A DNA stretch of 31,492 nucleotides from a virus, in IMG/VR virus record IMGVR_UViG_3300020267_000012, positions 1 to 31,492 of that record, one strand, 5' to 3'. Each line of letters opens with the position of its first letter. The first letter of the stretch is position 1. The notes beneath the pieces are model-generated. The model was not told where the DNA came from and made no database searches. It saw nothing but the letters and a program-made list of their open reading frames with translations. Of the stretch, positions 2,809 through 27,677 are shown in pieces. The translations under genes and the position numbers were made by a program.

Positions 2809-4149
2809 TTATGCGAACGCTTGTTGAACTAATAAAAAAGGTGTGCCTGCGTCTTTAAAAATAAATGTAATTATATCTATTGCACCTGAACCTGTAGACA
2901 TAGTGTAACCTGCAGCACCAGGAGTCTTAGCGTTAGCACCACCTGCACCATTTACTGCGCATGTCAAACCTACAGTTCTATCTGAGCTGTCTTGTGTAAT
3001 TATTAATGTAAATGTAGATACACCGTCTTTTGGTACATTTTTTATAGTAAATTGTGTAACGTTTTCAGATAATGTTATGCTACCTGAGTTACCTTGTGAT
3101 AAATCTAAAGTTACAACACCTGAAGAAGATGTAATTGTATCTTGATGTACTTCTGTAAAGTTTTGTAATCTATTATCTGATAAAGTTATTTGTCCGTCTC
3201 CACCCATGCCTCCGTGATGTGAACAGTAATAATATAATTTGTTTGCTACTATGACTTCTGCAGTTACTTCTATTTCTGTATAAGAATTAGCAGATCCAGG
3301 TGTTCCTGAAACTGTAACGTTAGTAGTATATTCTGAACCACCATTGTGTGATCCGTCTTGTACTGTAGAAAATTTAAAATTGTGTCCTGACAAACTGCTG
3401 TCTGACGTATCAAATTTAACTTTAGTGTTTGTTTGTAAATCCCAATTTATTGATTTTACACCGCTACCTGTATCAGAACCTGTTAAGAAATAAAATACGT
3501 TTTGAGATCCTGATCCATCATCTGCAACTTTTACAGTTACATCAATTATTTGATCTGCTGTAACGCTGTCAAATGTAACATCATCTGTTGTACCAACAGC
3601 TTGACCTATAGCAAGTTGTCCTGACGTAGCAGTTATTCCTGTGCCTGCAATTGCTGTAGCAAAATCAGCAATAGATTCTCTTTTAGTAATATTGTTTCCG
3701 TCTGCATCTCTAAAAAATAATGAGTCATTAGCAACGTTTACTGCTGTATCTGTTACGTTAAATACTACTTCTCCTGCTTGTGCGCTGCTATAATCACCAT
3801 CTACAACTTTTCCTACAGCATCCCAAATATCTTCAAACATTTGAGCCATTGGAGATACACGAACTTTTGTTCCAGAAGCATGTGATAAACCTGATCCTGC
3901 TGCAGATCCTGTTAAATATCTATTGTCTACAGTTGATGTAGCTGCTGAAGATGCATTGATAGTTCCATCAATAAAAATATATTCTCTTGATGATGCACTA
4001 TCTGGATCTATAACTAAATATATTGGTGAAGTTAATCCGCTTGTTGATGTTAAATTTAATGTTGTGTCGGTAGCTCCAAGTGTACCTGACAATGTTGTTT
4101 CAAAAGCATTACGTAAATTAGTTTCTGCTGCTTTTCTTGTGTTTGCCAT
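2809..4149 (-). CDS. Tail fibre protein with cupredoxin-like domain
   Basis: This encodes 446 residues rich in Thr, Ser and Gly. The N-terminal ~110 residues resemble attachment domains of phage fibres ('TTLNLTSTSG', 'YLTGSAAGSGLSHASG', then 'MAQMFEDIWDAVG'). Around residues 215-320 is a beta-rich segment with His256 in 'GHNF' and a C-x2-H-x2-M cluster at Cys309, His312, Met315 in 'YYYCSHHGGMGG'. That His ... Cys-His-Met order matches the ligand order of blue-copper (cupredoxin) sites. The remainder is a short beta-rich C-terminal domain. It lies next to the polyglycine adhesin and probably carries it. A start at the ATG at 4149-4147 is supported by an upstream AGGA. Whether metal is bound is not shown by the sequence. 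Confidence 0.8.
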   Translation of the reverse strand: MANTRKAAETNLRNAFETTLSGTLGATDTTLNLTSTSGLTSPIYLVIDPDSASSREYIFIDGTINASSAATSTVDNRYLTGSAAGSGLSHASGTKVRVSPMAQMFEDIWDAVGKVVDGDYSSAQAGEVVFNVTDTAVNVANDSLFFRDADGNNITKRESIADFATAIAGTGITATSGQLAIGQAVGTTDDVTFDSVTADQIIDVTVKVADDGSGSQNVFYFLTGSDTGSGVKSINWDLQTNTKVKFDTSDSSLSGHNFKFSTVQDGSHNGGSEYTTNVTVSGTPGSANSYTEIEVTAEVIVANKLYYYCSHHGGMGGDGQITLSDNRLQNFTEVHQDTITSSSGVVTLDLSQGNSGSITLSENVTQFTIKNVPKDGVSTFTLIITQDSSDRTVGLTCAVNGAGGANAKTPGAAGYTMSTGSGAIDIITFIFKDAGTPFLLVQQAFA

Positions 4150-4209: not shown

Positions 4210-6183
4210 AGTACCAAATTCGTATATGCCCAAATTACCGACTCCGAGCGCACTTAATGATGTAACTTCTTGAGACGCTGTATCTTGTAGTTGACCTCTT
4301 ACAGTAAGAAAACAAAAAACCATTGTAGATCCTTGTTTTGATATTTCAGATACAGGTAATGTAACATTTTCTACAATACCTCTAACTGTTTCTTCTGGTT
4401 TAAATACATTTAATGTAACTGATTTACCCTCTAATCTTTGTATTTGATCAAATATTTTTTGTCCTATTCCTGGTACATTTTTAGCTAATTTACCTGGTCT
4501 TTCAATCCTATCAGAAACATTAATAGGTAATTTTACAATAACATCTTCTGGTTCTGGAAATGCACGAATTGAAAAAGAATACACATGAGGACTATACGCA
4601 TTAGCATTACCAGATTGTATAACAATTTTAGTAACAAGCCATCTGCTTACAACATTGACTAATGGTTTCTCATCTCCATCTCCTACTATTTGTACATTAT
4701 CTATAGTTGTCCAGGAAGAAGCATTTGGATTTTGCATATCTTCTAAAGTTGTTGTAAAAAAAGTATTTACTTCTGAACCACCAGACATTTCATTGGTGTA
4801 AATTCTTGATCCAATCCATTGTTTAGCAGAAGCTGTAAAAAAATCTGCTGCTGACAATATTACATAACCATCAGAAACATAATTAGACGTATCTTCTTTT
4901 ATTACACCAATTTCTTTTAATGAAAAAAACAATACATCATTTGCTACAGCTATTCCTTGCACCTCTTTACTATTTGCACTCCAATATATATTTCTAGCTA
5001 TACCCAATGTAGGTAAAAATACAGACCATAAGTGTGTTTCATTTGAATCTTCTATAACTCCCATGTAAATTTGTTCTCTTGTTTTTGCAAATTTCATAGG
5101 TCCTCTGTCAACAGTAGTGTCATCATCTCCCCATTCTTTCATAACTTGTTTGTTACTAACAATGTAAAGATTGTCTGATGCAATTACTTGTGCCATATAC
5201 AATCTACCAATATAACCATTTGTTTGTTTATTTTTTTGTTTAGCACCAACAAAAACAATACCGTTAGATTCTATAACATCTGTCAACTCTTCTCCCTCAA
5301 AAAATGTTTGACCTTTAATAGTTAAACCTGAATCATCTTTAATAGAATAAATATATCCATTACTAGCAGCAGCTAATATAACTGCTCCTGCATCTGTCAT
5401 ACCTACCCAGGTAGTGTTATCTGGTAAATCTTTTACTATTGACGGTGTGCCTGATCCTGCTGTTACATTAAGTAAATTTCCGTTATCACCATCTACACCG
5501 AATATAAAATCTTTTACTGCAAATACATTTGTATAATTTTTACTTACTGTATTCCAATCAGACCAAGAATCAGCAGACACATCATATTTACGAATAGTTC
5601 CATCAGTATTATCACTCATAGCAACATATAAATCTCCACCATATACTGCCAAGTCTCTTACTGTACGTCCTGCATTACCTGAATCAGGTGTCAACTCTGT
5701 CCAGTTTGCTCCATTGTCTGTAGATTTGTATATTTTATTACCATCTCCTACAAATAAAATATTACTAACAGATACTAAATGTTGATTTGTAGCGGTATCG
5801 CTTCTTGATATTGATGTATTATATAGCAGCTCTATTTTATATTGTTCCCCTTTTTCACCAGCATATTTAAATACATCTACGCCTTTGCTATCAAAAAATT
5901 TTCTGAAATCATTTTTGCCTTGTGTTCTTTGATGTGCTTGGTCTAGCCCTTGTCCTCCAGAAAAGTCTGATCTACCATAACTTTGACCAAACTCTGATCT
6001 AAATTCTTCTGGCGTTTGAGAAGTGTTAATTTGTTGAGCAGCTAATGGAGCAGTAGTTAAACTAAATTCTCTACCTGGTGCAGTAGCTAATCGTAACAAT
6101 ACGTCTGTAATACCATCACTAATTGATGCTTCATATCCCCAAGCAAGAGGTCTAGTTACTGCAGAACTTGTAGGTACAGGCAT
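4207..6183 (-). CDS. Tail-tube/nozzle-like protein with beta-propeller repeats (gp12-type, tentative)
   Basis: This encodes 658 residues. After an N-terminal arm comes a long beta-rich region with an Asp-box (BNR) signature near residues 151-160 ('KSTDNGANWTEL', S-x-D-x-G-x-x-W) and further propeller-like strands ('YGGDLYVAMSDNTDGTIRKYD', 'WVGMTDAGAVILAAASNGYIY'). The C-terminal ~150 residues form a separate beta domain. Large beta-propeller proteins encoded directly after a ~300-residue connector are typical of the podovirus tail nozzle (tail tubular protein B, T7 gp12), so I infer that role. The start overlaps the upstream stop (TAATG at 6181-6185). A fibre or spike with a propeller head is the alternative. 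Confidence 0.7.
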   Translation of the reverse strand: MPVPTSSAVTRPLAWGYEASISDGITDVLLRLATAPGREFSLTTAPLAAQQINTSQTPEEFRSEFGQSYGRSDFSGGQGLDQAHQRTQGKNDFRKFFDSKGVDVFKYAGEKGEQYKIELLYNTSISRSDTATNQHLVSVSNILFVGDGNKIYKSTDNGANWTELTPDSGNAGRTVRDLAVYGGDLYVAMSDNTDGTIRKYDVSADSWSDWNTVSKNYTNVFAVKDFIFGVDGDNGNLLNVTAGSGTPSIVKDLPDNTTWVGMTDAGAVILAAASNGYIYSIKDDSGLTIKGQTFFEGEELTDVIESNGIVFVGAKQKNKQTNGYIGRLYMAQVIASDNLYIVSNKQVMKEWGDDDTTVDRGPMKFAKTREQIYMGVIEDSNETHLWSVFLPTLGIARNIYWSANSKEVQGIAVANDVLFFSLKEIGVIKEDTSNYVSDGYVILSAADFFTASAKQWIGSRIYTNEMSGGSEVNTFFTTTLEDMQNPNASSWTTIDNVQIVGDGDEKPLVNVVSRWLVTKIVIQSGNANAYSPHVYSFSIRAFPEPEDVIVKLPINVSDRIERPGKLAKNVPGIGQKIFDQIQRLEGKSVTLNVFKPEETVRGIVENVTLPVSEISKQGSTMVFCFLTVRGQLQDTASQEVTSLSALGVGNLGIYEFGT

Positions 6184-25000: not shown

Positions 25001-26923
25001 TTATCTATCCCACATTCTTTCGTCATAAGTTGTCATTTTATAATTGCTATATGATGGATTATAGTCATTGTCTACTTCTGATAGCACCAATTTAACGGTC
25101 TGGCGTACCCTCTTCATAGGAAACCAACTTGCCATAACTAAGTCTGTTTTACTACTAACTGATTTAGAATTGCTACTACTAGCACTACTAAAATATATTA
25201 ACTGTTGTCTTAGTGTATTTACTTTACGTTGTGTTTGTGGATTTCCCCATGGTAAATTTATTTTTTGCTGTTCATACATAGGAACCATAGCAGTAACACC
25301 AAATACAGGATCCCATTTGTTTTTATATGTTTGATGTCCCTCTATCCTTACACCATTTGCTCCTGCCCAATTTTTAATTTCTTTATCTTGTCCTATAGCT
25401 TTTTGAAATCCGTTTTCTTCTACAATCCAATGTGATAAAAAATATTGTTGATGCCACTCTTGCATAACTTTTAACGCTTTTGATATACCACCGCCTAAGT
25501 CATTACGTAAATCTACTAACCATAATTGTCCAGTTTTTTGATTGTATGCCCACAATACAGCAGCTTGGTAACCTGTAGATGCTGGATCTAATCCTGCAAT
25601 TAATGCAGTATGTGGTGGTATGTCTCCTAAATTTCTGGACCTATCTAAACATCCATCAATCATTTCTGCACTAAACAATTCCATACCTGCTGGCACAGCT
25701 TTATTTAAATACACCATTTCGAATATAGCTCTACCACCTGTAGTTTCTGCTGATGCTAATTGTTCCATTAACCATTTATGAGTACGTTTACCTTTCCATA
25801 ACATGTGTTCATCTTGTTCATCTGACTCCTGGTCTAAAGGTATTTCTAAATCGTGCGCACGCTCTACTATTGTTTCCCAGGCATCATTGTTCAGCAATGC
25901 GTTATACAAGTCATCTGGATGCTGTCTGGAGCCAATTACGACCATTCCTGTGTGTTCTTCTTTTCTTGACTGCAATGTTGTGGTCCACCAGTTTTTAGTA
26001 TTTTCTCTAGCACTTGGTTGTACTGTACTACCATGATCTTCAATGTCATCAGATATTATTAAGTCTGCATCCCTGGACAATATTTTTCCGCCTTTACCTA
26101 CAGCTACTAATGTAGGACTTTTTATACCAGCTACCGTTCTTGTAGCTACAGTAAACTGACTTGTACTCCAGGACTTTCCTGATTTGTTCATAGGTCTAAA
26201 TCCCTCGTATGATGCAAAATCTTGTATAAGTTCTTCGTTATTTTCTAAATGGTCTAATACAGCACCTACTGCATTCTTAGCTATATCTTCATTACCTCCT
26301 ACCCACATTATTCTCATGTTTGGATTTTTACATATCATGTATACGCAGAAGTGTGTTAACAAGTCTGTTTTGCCATGACGTGGCGGAGACAGTACCATAA
26401 GTCTCTTTCCGTTTTCTATTGCATCTAATATTGCCTCTATCCATCTTTTTTGGAAACCTGGTGTCTCATACGGTATACCTTGCTCTGTCAAAAAATATTT
26501 GTCCCTGAAAGCTACAAAGTCCTCTAGCTTGACAGCACTATCCCCCCCATTTTTTTGTAAGGACTCGTGATTTACTCGTAGTGCTTCGTCTTTTATCCAT
26601 GCAGACAATGATCTAGTTACAGTAGCTAGTGAGCATCCTAGTATGTCAGCTATCTCTTGTTTAGTCTTAGTACCGTTTAAAAGGTCGGCAAAAAAATTTT
26701 TTTTCTCCATAATGGCATAGTAATTACCTCTACGTTTCTGTATGTTTGTATCTACTACTTTCTCTACGTGGTACGTGTCTGTTGTTTTATTAGCTCTGTA
26801 AGCTCTCTTTTTAATTCTATTAGCACACTTGTCTGAACAGTATTTTCTTCTACCGTCTGGTAAAAGGCGGTTGCAATCGTTAGCTACACAGAACTTGTTT
26901 TTTTCTTGATTAGATTTAGTCAT
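25001..26923 (-). CDS. terL: Terminase large subunit with N-terminal zinc ribbon and HTH
   Basis: This encodes 640 residues. An unusual N-terminal module has Cys12-x4-Cys17-x11-Cys29-x3-Cys33 (zinc ribbon) within a basic stretch. Residues ~77-113 ('KTKQEIADILGCSLATVTRSL') are a helix-turn-helix. The packaging ATPase follows: Walker A 'SPPRHGKT' (179-186), Walker B 'DLIISDDIED' (287-296) and a coupling segment 'MVVIGSRQHPDDLY'. The C-terminal part is an RNase H-fold nuclease beginning with 'IAGLDPAST' (~447) as the acidic motif. It translocates and cuts phage DNA at the portal. The small terminase gene was not found; the fused DNA-binding modules might replace part of its job. There is no clear Shine-Dalgarno before the ATG, which lies after a ~260-nt structured leader. 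Confidence 0.92.
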   Translation of the reverse strand: MTKSNQEKNKFCVANDCNRLLPDGRRKYCSDKCANRIKKRAYRANKTTDTYHVEKVVDTNIQKRRGNYYAIMEKKNFFADLLNGTKTKQEIADILGCSLATVTRSLSAWIKDEALRVNHESLQKNGGDSAVKLEDFVAFRDKYFLTEQGIPYETPGFQKRWIEAILDAIENGKRLMVLSPPRHGKTDLLTHFCVYMICKNPNMRIMWVGGNEDIAKNAVGAVLDHLENNEELIQDFASYEGFRPMNKSGKSWSTSQFTVATRTVAGIKSPTLVAVGKGGKILSRDADLIISDDIEDHGSTVQPSARENTKNWWTTTLQSRKEEHTGMVVIGSRQHPDDLYNALLNNDAWETIVERAHDLEIPLDQESDEQDEHMLWKGKRTHKWLMEQLASAETTGGRAIFEMVYLNKAVPAGMELFSAEMIDGCLDRSRNLGDIPPHTALIAGLDPASTGYQAAVLWAYNQKTGQLWLVDLRNDLGGGISKALKVMQEWHQQYFLSHWIVEENGFQKAIGQDKEIKNWAGANGVRIEGHQTYKNKWDPVFGVTAMVPMYEQQKINLPWGNPQTQRKVNTLRQQLIYFSSASSSNSKSVSSKTDLVMASWFPMKRVRQTVKLVLSEVDNDYNPSYSNYKMTTYDERMWDR

Positions 26924-27197: not shown

Positions 27198-27275
27198 GAC
27201 TAATTACTGACTATAAAAAAGATACTAAATATAGTATATATTTCTTTAAATACTACATGTAGTGTACACAATATA

Positions 27276-27284
27276 TGGTATACT
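27276..27284 (+). promoter_or_regulatory. Extended -10 promoter for the tRNA-like RNA
   Basis: The plus strand reads TGGTATACT. The hexamer ends at 27284, seven bases before G27292, the first base of the tRNA-like RNA. Transcription would therefore begin at or within one base of the mature 5' end. No clear -35 is present. The element is on the opposite strand to all flanking genes and points away from the terminase promoter about 80 nt to its left, so the two are divergent. Confidence 0.55.
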
Positions 27285-27291
27285 GTCTACT

Positions 27292-27383
27292 GGGGATGAT
27301 TGGTAAGTAAAGCTAACAATCAAGTAACAGATTGCCTTTGTACACAGTAGCTTTAAACCTAGGTTCGACTCCTAGCATCTCCA
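27292..27383 (+). ncRNA. tRNA-like RNA resembling the tRNA-like domain of tmRNA, lacking a normal cloverleaf
   Basis: The 92-nt element has a perfect 7-bp acceptor stem, GGGGATG (27292-27298) with CATCTCC (27376-27382), discriminator A27383, and a perfect 5-bp T-arm, CTAGG (27359-27363) with CCTAG (27371-27375), loop TTCGACT. Pair 3:70 is G:U and position 73 is A, the alanyl-tRNA synthetase identity set shared by tRNA-Ala and tmRNA. The 5' end GGGGATGATTGG follows the tmRNA pattern GGGGnUGAnnGG. In place of D and anticodon arms, AAAGCTA (27309-27315) pairs perfectly with TAGCTTT (27348-27354), like helix P2 of tmRNA. It encloses only 32 nt with one hairpin, CAATC/GATTG (27317-27321, 27330-27334). 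No 7-nt anticodon loop with T33 forms. CCA is not encoded (ACT follows). A degenerate tRNA is the alternative. Confidence 0.6.
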
Positions 27384-27625
27384 CTATATATAGTAGGTTT
27401 ATACAAAATACCTAGTTACCACCTATACTTTTGGTGATACATATACATTTACGCAGACGCCAGATTTAATTGTGGGGGTTGCTAAATTTTGTCCTAGGTT
27501 TTATAGGTTTTAAACTTGTCCAGGACAGCTTTGGATCTCTATAAATGCATTTGTCTACTGCATAACACCACACGCACGCACGACCGCCCTTAATTTAATA
27601 CAGAAGATACCCCACTTGTTTAAAA
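27384..27625. other. Gene-free spacer between the tRNA-like RNA and the small-gene operon
   Basis: I see no supported gene on either strand. Small inverted repeats occur: TAGGT/ACCTA (27394-27398 with 27410-27414, loop 11) and CACC/GGTG (27420-27423 with 27433-27436), either of which may end transcription of the RNA upstream, though no T-run follows. The segment near 27566-27590 has CACGCACGCACGACCGCCC, related to the CGCACGAC part of the 13-mer repeated at 29768 and 31052. The role is unknown. Confidence 0.4.
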
Positions 27626-27655: not shown

Positions 27656-27677
27656 CATCTTCCGTACGTTATACGAT

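Follow-up and report, generated by a model that had tools for sequence, protein, structure and literature searches.

To our knowledge, tmRNAs devoid of an mRNA-like domain have been seen previously only in jakobid mitochondria and as engineered fragments. The jakobid form, lacking the mRNA-like region, goes back to Jacob et al. (2004), as described in PMC3985003, and the first-pass annotation of the locus presented here had already drawn the parallel with such mitochondrial tmRNAs, which that description supports. The engineered form is the tRNA-like domain (TLD). TLD fragments bind SmpB, work on ribosomes, and make poly-alanine in vitro without a template, and the alanylated TLD together with SmpB imitates a whole tRNA through the ribosome (PMC3929946). 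In E. coli tmRNA, G19 packs on SmpB and its mutation to C prevents binding (PMC8363625). The phage tmRNAs found in the literature carry tags and occur in one or two pieces (PMC9004378). In the open-access full texts searched, there is no account of phage tmRNAs without an mRNA-like domain, and an earlier description is possible. The annotation held that known phage tmRNAs carry an insert of more than 200 nt; over a hundred phage sequences described below do not.

The window, i.e., the whole stretch of DNA analyzed (31,492 nucleotides), is a 31.5-kb virus record of a tailed marine phage with an SU10-type capsid protein, a terminase, and a portal. A gene for a 92-nt RNA lies at 27292–27383 (+), in the intergenic space preceding the terminase gene, which is on the opposite strand, and the structural elements claimed for it are all present at the annotated positions (Table 1). 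The terminase large subunit (25001–26923, −) has an N-terminal CGNR zinc-finger match (residues 11–45) and a weak Crp-type HTH match. At 27656–27637 (−), a strong intrinsic-terminator-like hairpin, GGAGGGGCTTCGGCTCCTCT with a T-tail, ends the small-gene operon facing the RNA gene.

Table 1. Features of the 92-nt RNA gene and of its upstream region (window numbering)
Feature	Positions	Strand	Basis
Extended -10 promoter element TGG-TATACT (TGGTATACT)	27276..27284	+	Sequence; ends 7 nt before G1
Acceptor stem, 5′ strand GGGGAUG, with G3 of G3:U70	27292..27298	+	Sequence, Rfam match, class covariation
A8, then a degenerate D-loop of the tmRNA type, AUUGGUAAG (GG and, further downstream, a G equivalent to G19)	27299..27307	+	Sequence; class pattern
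P2 helix, 5′ strand UAAAGCUA	27308..27315	+	Sequence, core shuffling, class covariation
P2 interior, 32 nt, replacing the mRNA-like domain	27316..27347	+	Sequence
P2 helix, 3′ strand UAGCUUUA	27348..27355	+	Sequence, core shuffling, class covariation
Linker AAC before the T-stem	27356..27358	+	93/107 clusters end AC here
T-arm CUAGG-UUCGACU-CCUAG	27359..27375	+	5/5 pairs; Rfam match, class covariation
Acceptor stem, 3′ strand CAUCUCC, with U70 at 27380	27376..27382	+	Sequence, Rfam match, class covariation
A73 discriminator	27383..27383	+	Sequence; CTA comes next

The acceptor strands GGGGATG (27292–27298) and CATCTCC (27376–27382) pair 7/7, G3:U70 included, and the T-arm with its TTCGACT loop pairs 5/5, so that the perfect acceptor (with A73) and the perfect T-arm of the annotation are both there. 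The P2-like stem was given as 7 bp around a 32-nt interior (AAAGCTA at 27309–27315 with TAGCTTT at 27348–27354); it is present, and one more T-A pair (27308/27355) lengthens it. This interior compares with 10–19 nt in most of the class described below. It contains no tag reading frame and no frame with a tag-like end. No pseudoknots (PK1–PK4) are found in it either: 32 nt leaves no room for them, and the insert is deleted in the Rfam alignment. The 8-mer TGTACACA occurs at 27263–27270, upstream of the promoter box, and again at 27339–27346 in the interior. An inner hairpin CAAUC/GAUUG of the window is not claimed, since it is absent in one relative (L023). Most of the class has GAC or AAC as the linker before the T-stem, where tmRNA has GGAC. 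Because CTA follows A73, CCA is not encoded in the window and must be added by the host. The extended -10 box is kept in all relatives of the window family and in a more distant family (L117, L187, and L191), where the box TATACTGTAGACT directly precedes the family's own element (TATACTGTAGACT-GGGGG). An automatic promoter scan, which requires a -35 hexamer, does not list the box of the window. With the box ending 7 nt before G1, the predicted transcript probably starts with the first base of the RNA or very close to it.

The Rfam tmRNA model (RF00023) matches 27292–27386 over model positions 1–374 with the whole insert deleted (E 9.1e-13, 801 bases searched), as expected from the claim of tmRNA-type ends with almost no insert, yet at 36.1 bits the element stays under the gathering cut-off of 47. 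ARAGORN finds 0 genes in the element: it reports no tRNA, in line with the annotated lack of a normal cloverleaf (the relatives, too, show no cloverleaf with a conserved anticodon), and it calls no tmRNA. A covariance model built from other families only (R2) finds 27292–27383 at 49.9 bits (E 1.8e-7, 196 kb) and, in the same search, ranks the element above fragments of full tmRNAs and above tRNAs. As for folding, the acceptor, T-arm, and P2 do form the lowest-energy structure (−22.6 kcal/mol), but the energy itself is unremarkable (z = −1.5 only); the case for the RNA rests on comparison. When the core between acceptor and T-arm is shuffled, an equally good P2 appears in 0.4% of trials. It is confirmed that the element is not there by chance.

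About twenty IMG/VR contigs, with terminases 81–100% identical to that of the window, have the element at the same place. In this family, both strands of the T-stem vary (CUAGG/CCUAG, CCAGG/CCUGG, UCCGG/CCGGA), with compensatory changes of the T-arm in L013 and L023, and in the P2 of L023 UAUAGCUA/UAGCUAUA replaces UAAAGCUA/UAGCUUUA, again with both sides changed. Compensation in P2 and T-arm is thus found within the window's own family. The A-rich loop shows free variation. Beside L187, of the more distant family, the terminase groups with those of the window family and has the same divergent arrangement. Among terminase relatives at 51–55% identity (L029–L052), no such RNA is detected within the stretches examined. 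Seven relatives (L013, L014, L015, L019, L020, L022, and L027) have C70 instead of U70, hence G3:C70, and no other member seen in the class lacks the alanine determinant. In two subgroups of the family (L013, L015, and L019 types), G3:C70 should abolish alanylation, and charging may therefore not be essential there.

Similar RNAs, called minis in what follows, were gathered by pattern scans and covariance models. A pattern requiring the conserved ends only returns unrelated phages with the same architecture. With a broader pattern, there are at least 120 matches, and among the matches listed some 85–90 score at least 45 bits with a covariance model. One acceptor subtype was scanned completely and occurs in 71 contigs (14 of which are also among the matches listed for the broader pattern); from that scan, a rough estimate is about 600 pattern matches across the whole collection. 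The minis comprise at least 147 distinct sequences in at least 107 clusters (80% core identity), from diverse phages and a few prophages. Their length is 75–80 nt in 85/107 clusters, a sharp peak, and a complete scan for longer forms (about 99–129 nt) finds no more than 24 contigs, and in 21 of these the ends pair fully. With such a peak and so few longer forms, the minis constitute a discrete size class and not random deletions. Two different mini-like genes apparently occur in one phage (L122, at 1298–1374 and 3208–3288), and tandem tmRNA-model matches of about 78 nt, which may include tRNAs, are present in G345 (43134–43382) and G343.

Across 85 distinct sequences, 95.6% of cells are paired and each of the eight P2 pairs has changes in both strands; covariation scores 0.678 (0.142 in shuffled alignments and at most 0.10 in slid structures). 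In reading these values, acceptor and T pairing are partly search criteria, and selection by models favors sequences with P2. The covariation picture is the same in a smaller alignment made blind to structure, and in a set selected without P2 the helix is found at p ≤ 0.05 in 35/52 sequences (median score 6.5 vs. 3.4). The strong covariation of acceptor, T, and P2 stems across the class is what the annotation proposed to look for in related phages. G3:U70 is kept in 84/85 sequences, and U70 was not forced in the pattern supplying most of them (C or U allowed). Position 8, a U in tRNAs, is A in 102/107 clusters. The D-loop motif GG-N3/4-G-[AC] occurs in 80/107 clusters, against 19 in shuffles. 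About a third of the members encode CCA. Insert-less members score 49–74 bits with the Rfam tmRNA model (cut-off 47); the cut-off is exceeded in 7 of 17 carrier records, in 18 of 27 records (17 of these through the mini), and also by the minis of phiPsal1, L445, L153, L122, and L089. These comparisons support the view that the RNA belongs to a phage class of tmRNA in which the mRNA-like domain is absent and the tRNA-like domain is kept, and the alignments show the predicted determinants of alanine charging and SmpB binding to be conserved in the class. It is apparently a large class, widespread in unrelated phages and unrecognized, and its genes are missed by ARAGORN.

The genes flanking minis are those for terminase, portal, head protease, capsid, replication, and WhiB. 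A recurring site is directly after the stop codon of a protease or terminase gene and before a capsid or portal gene, on the same strand. The flanking genes shared by the carriers are common structural and replication genes, and no dedicated partner protein is found among them. One class member is found in a deposited named phage genome, that of the Pontimonas phage phiPsal1 (MG835450): an unannotated mini at 5569–5647, between the protease and capsid genes, which closely follows a small ORF and precedes the gene for the major capsid protein. This phage is reported as no longer available (PMC6106888). In isolated phages, blastn with complete minis gives, among the matches listed, T-arm matches to full tmRNAs, and with the T-arms cut off no match. 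The pattern scan of genome contigs was set aside, since most of what it returned were false positives resembling tRNAs and the 3′ ends of full tmRNAs. Minis are present in 2 of 247 actinomycete genomes (one adjoining a phrog_38 terminase, the other on a 3.5-kb contig) and, among head genes, in one Chloroflexota MAG. None is found at E ≤ 1e-4 in 289 alphaproteobacterial genomes, which, the filters being strict, is weak evidence of absence. A full-length tmRNA accompanies the mini in 1 of 27 records, the 340-kb jumbo phage IMGVR_UViG_3300036772_000425 (G317; tmRNA at 309390–309751, mini at 117191–117270). SmpB is encoded in 0 of 39 carrier virus records; therefore, host SmpB would be used.

The explanation we favor, with some confidence, is a phage tmRNA reduced to its tRNA-like domain and a short P2 hairpin, acting as a charged competitor of the host tmRNA. 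The host CCA-adding enzyme would complete the mini and AlaRS would charge it; host SmpB and EF-Tu would then deliver it to stalled ribosomes whose A site is empty of mRNA, and the nascent chain would be transferred onto its alanine. In the absence of a resume codon and of a tag, the mini cannot add a degradation tag. By competing with host tmRNA, it may keep the tag-and-destroy route away from phage proteins and ribosomes. The ribosome could be freed by drop-off, by further alanine addition, or by release at a stop codon of the P2-loop. That the stand-alone alanine-charged domain performs a tag-free rescue, with template-free alanine addition or release at the P2-loop stop, is a tentative proposal to which we give less than even chances. 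The conserved G3:U70 indicates that charging is selected, so the mini should accept the nascent chain and not merely bind SmpB. This role is inferred from conserved sequence determinants; alanylation, SmpB binding, and expression are predictions. The G3:C70 subgroups, the score of the window below the Rfam cut-off, and its larger interior point against it. So does H. pylori, whose trans-translation depends on an intact resume codon (PMC2584231); a mini, lacking one, may jam rather than rescue.

The main rival is an uncharged decoy, in which the mini only ties up SmpB (or EF-Tu, RNase P, or the CCA enzyme) and blocks host trans-translation without peptide transfer. The G3:C70 of the L013 and L019 subgroups, the missing mRNA-like domain, and the retained SmpB-binding D-loop would all fit, but for a mere sponge the alanine determinant, kept in 84/85 sequences, would be superfluous, and we consider a decoy unlikely.

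A mini could be a tRNA-like punctuation of late operons, its cleavage by RNase P separating or stabilizing the messages around capsid genes. Many minis indeed follow a stop codon by a few nucleotides and share the strand of their neighbors, which are protease and capsid genes or terminase and portal genes on either side. Members in structural operons would suit such mRNA processing too, which counts against the charged competitor. However, RNase P requires an acceptor and a T-stem only, so that the conserved G3:U70, A8, D-loop motif, and P2 are left unexplained by punctuation, and the copy in the window lies outside any operon, behind a promoter-like box of its own; this role appears quite improbable.

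The same low standing applies to the possibility that the mRNA-like domain has shrunk to UAA, UAG, or UGA at the P2/loop junction, read by a release factor once a single alanine has been added. In 46/107 clusters, that junction has one of these three stops, and U exceeds C before the purine run (47:23, p = 0.006), counts behind which the sequences are not independent; UAA and UAG are also swapped between relatives (L153/L159 and L105/L135). On the other hand, more than half of the clusters have no stop, L368 and L344 have a bare hairpin, and, the loop being A-rich, a U produces stops cheaply. Moreover, a stop in place of the resume codon is lethal in H. pylori (PMC2584231). The junction stop codon is a suggestive lead only.

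A remnant of an attachment site in ssrA, or one piece of a permuted two-piece tmRNA, is highly improbable: phages do integrate in ssrA and RF04321 gives a weak match at 27359–27481, but decay is ruled out by the strong covariation and the narrow peak of sizes, both acceptor strands lie within 92 nt in the non-permuted order (5′ then 3′), and the RF04321 match, partial at 22.3 bits and dependent on a mismatched GGGGUUG strand, was rejected. An ordinary tRNA-Ala(UGC) with an odd cloverleaf, drawable in the window with a 4-bp arm (ACAG-AUUGCCU-UUGU) presenting UGC, is practically untenable and refuted by the relatives, in which the anticodon arm is not conserved (broken in L001 and L013, loop CUACCC with UAC in place of UGC in L023), besides ARAGORN finding none and the class having no anticodon.

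That a large class of phage RNAs retains exactly the parts serving alanine, EF-Tu, and SmpB while the tag is lost implies a manipulation of ribosome rescue by phages, and it suggests that viruses interfere with, or re-route, the bacterial rescue of stalled ribosomes. The minis are a natural test of whether rescue and tagging are separable, a possible counter to host responses relying on trans-translation, and ready-made 75-nt tools for studies of SmpB and stalled ribosomes. If tag-free rescue were true, it would be a virus-made variant of trans-translation, with ribosomes freed and viral proteins unmarked for degradation.

With bacterial and phage tmRNA (ssrA, RF00023), the minis share the acceptor with G3:U70 and A73, the T-arm, the degenerate D-loop GG..UCGAC, the GAC linker, and a P2 (H2) helix that joins the 5′ and 3′ parts in place of an anticodon arm; they differ in having neither tag reading frame nor pseudoknots and in their length (75–92 nt vs. 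about 350). With tRNA-Ala, they share G3:U70, A73, and the T-arm, but there is no anticodon arm and no D-stem, and position 8 is A instead of U. The two-piece tmRNA of Melnitz (PMC9004378) is likewise phage-encoded and from marine phages; unlike the minis, it is permuted and has an mRNA-like domain with a tag. The jakobid mitochondrial tmRNA, likened here by its description in PMC3985003, also keeps the tRNA-like domain without tag and pseudoknots; it is organellar, with no mitochondrial SmpB reported in that description, whereas the minis belong to phages of bacteria, which have SmpB. The engineered TLD (T. thermophilus TLD–SmpB, PDB 2CZJ; PMC3929946), made of 25 residues from the 5′ end and 34 from the 3′ end with a short loop, has nearly the same architecture; such fragments are man-made, whereas the phage minis are natural, with an evolved P2 and loop.
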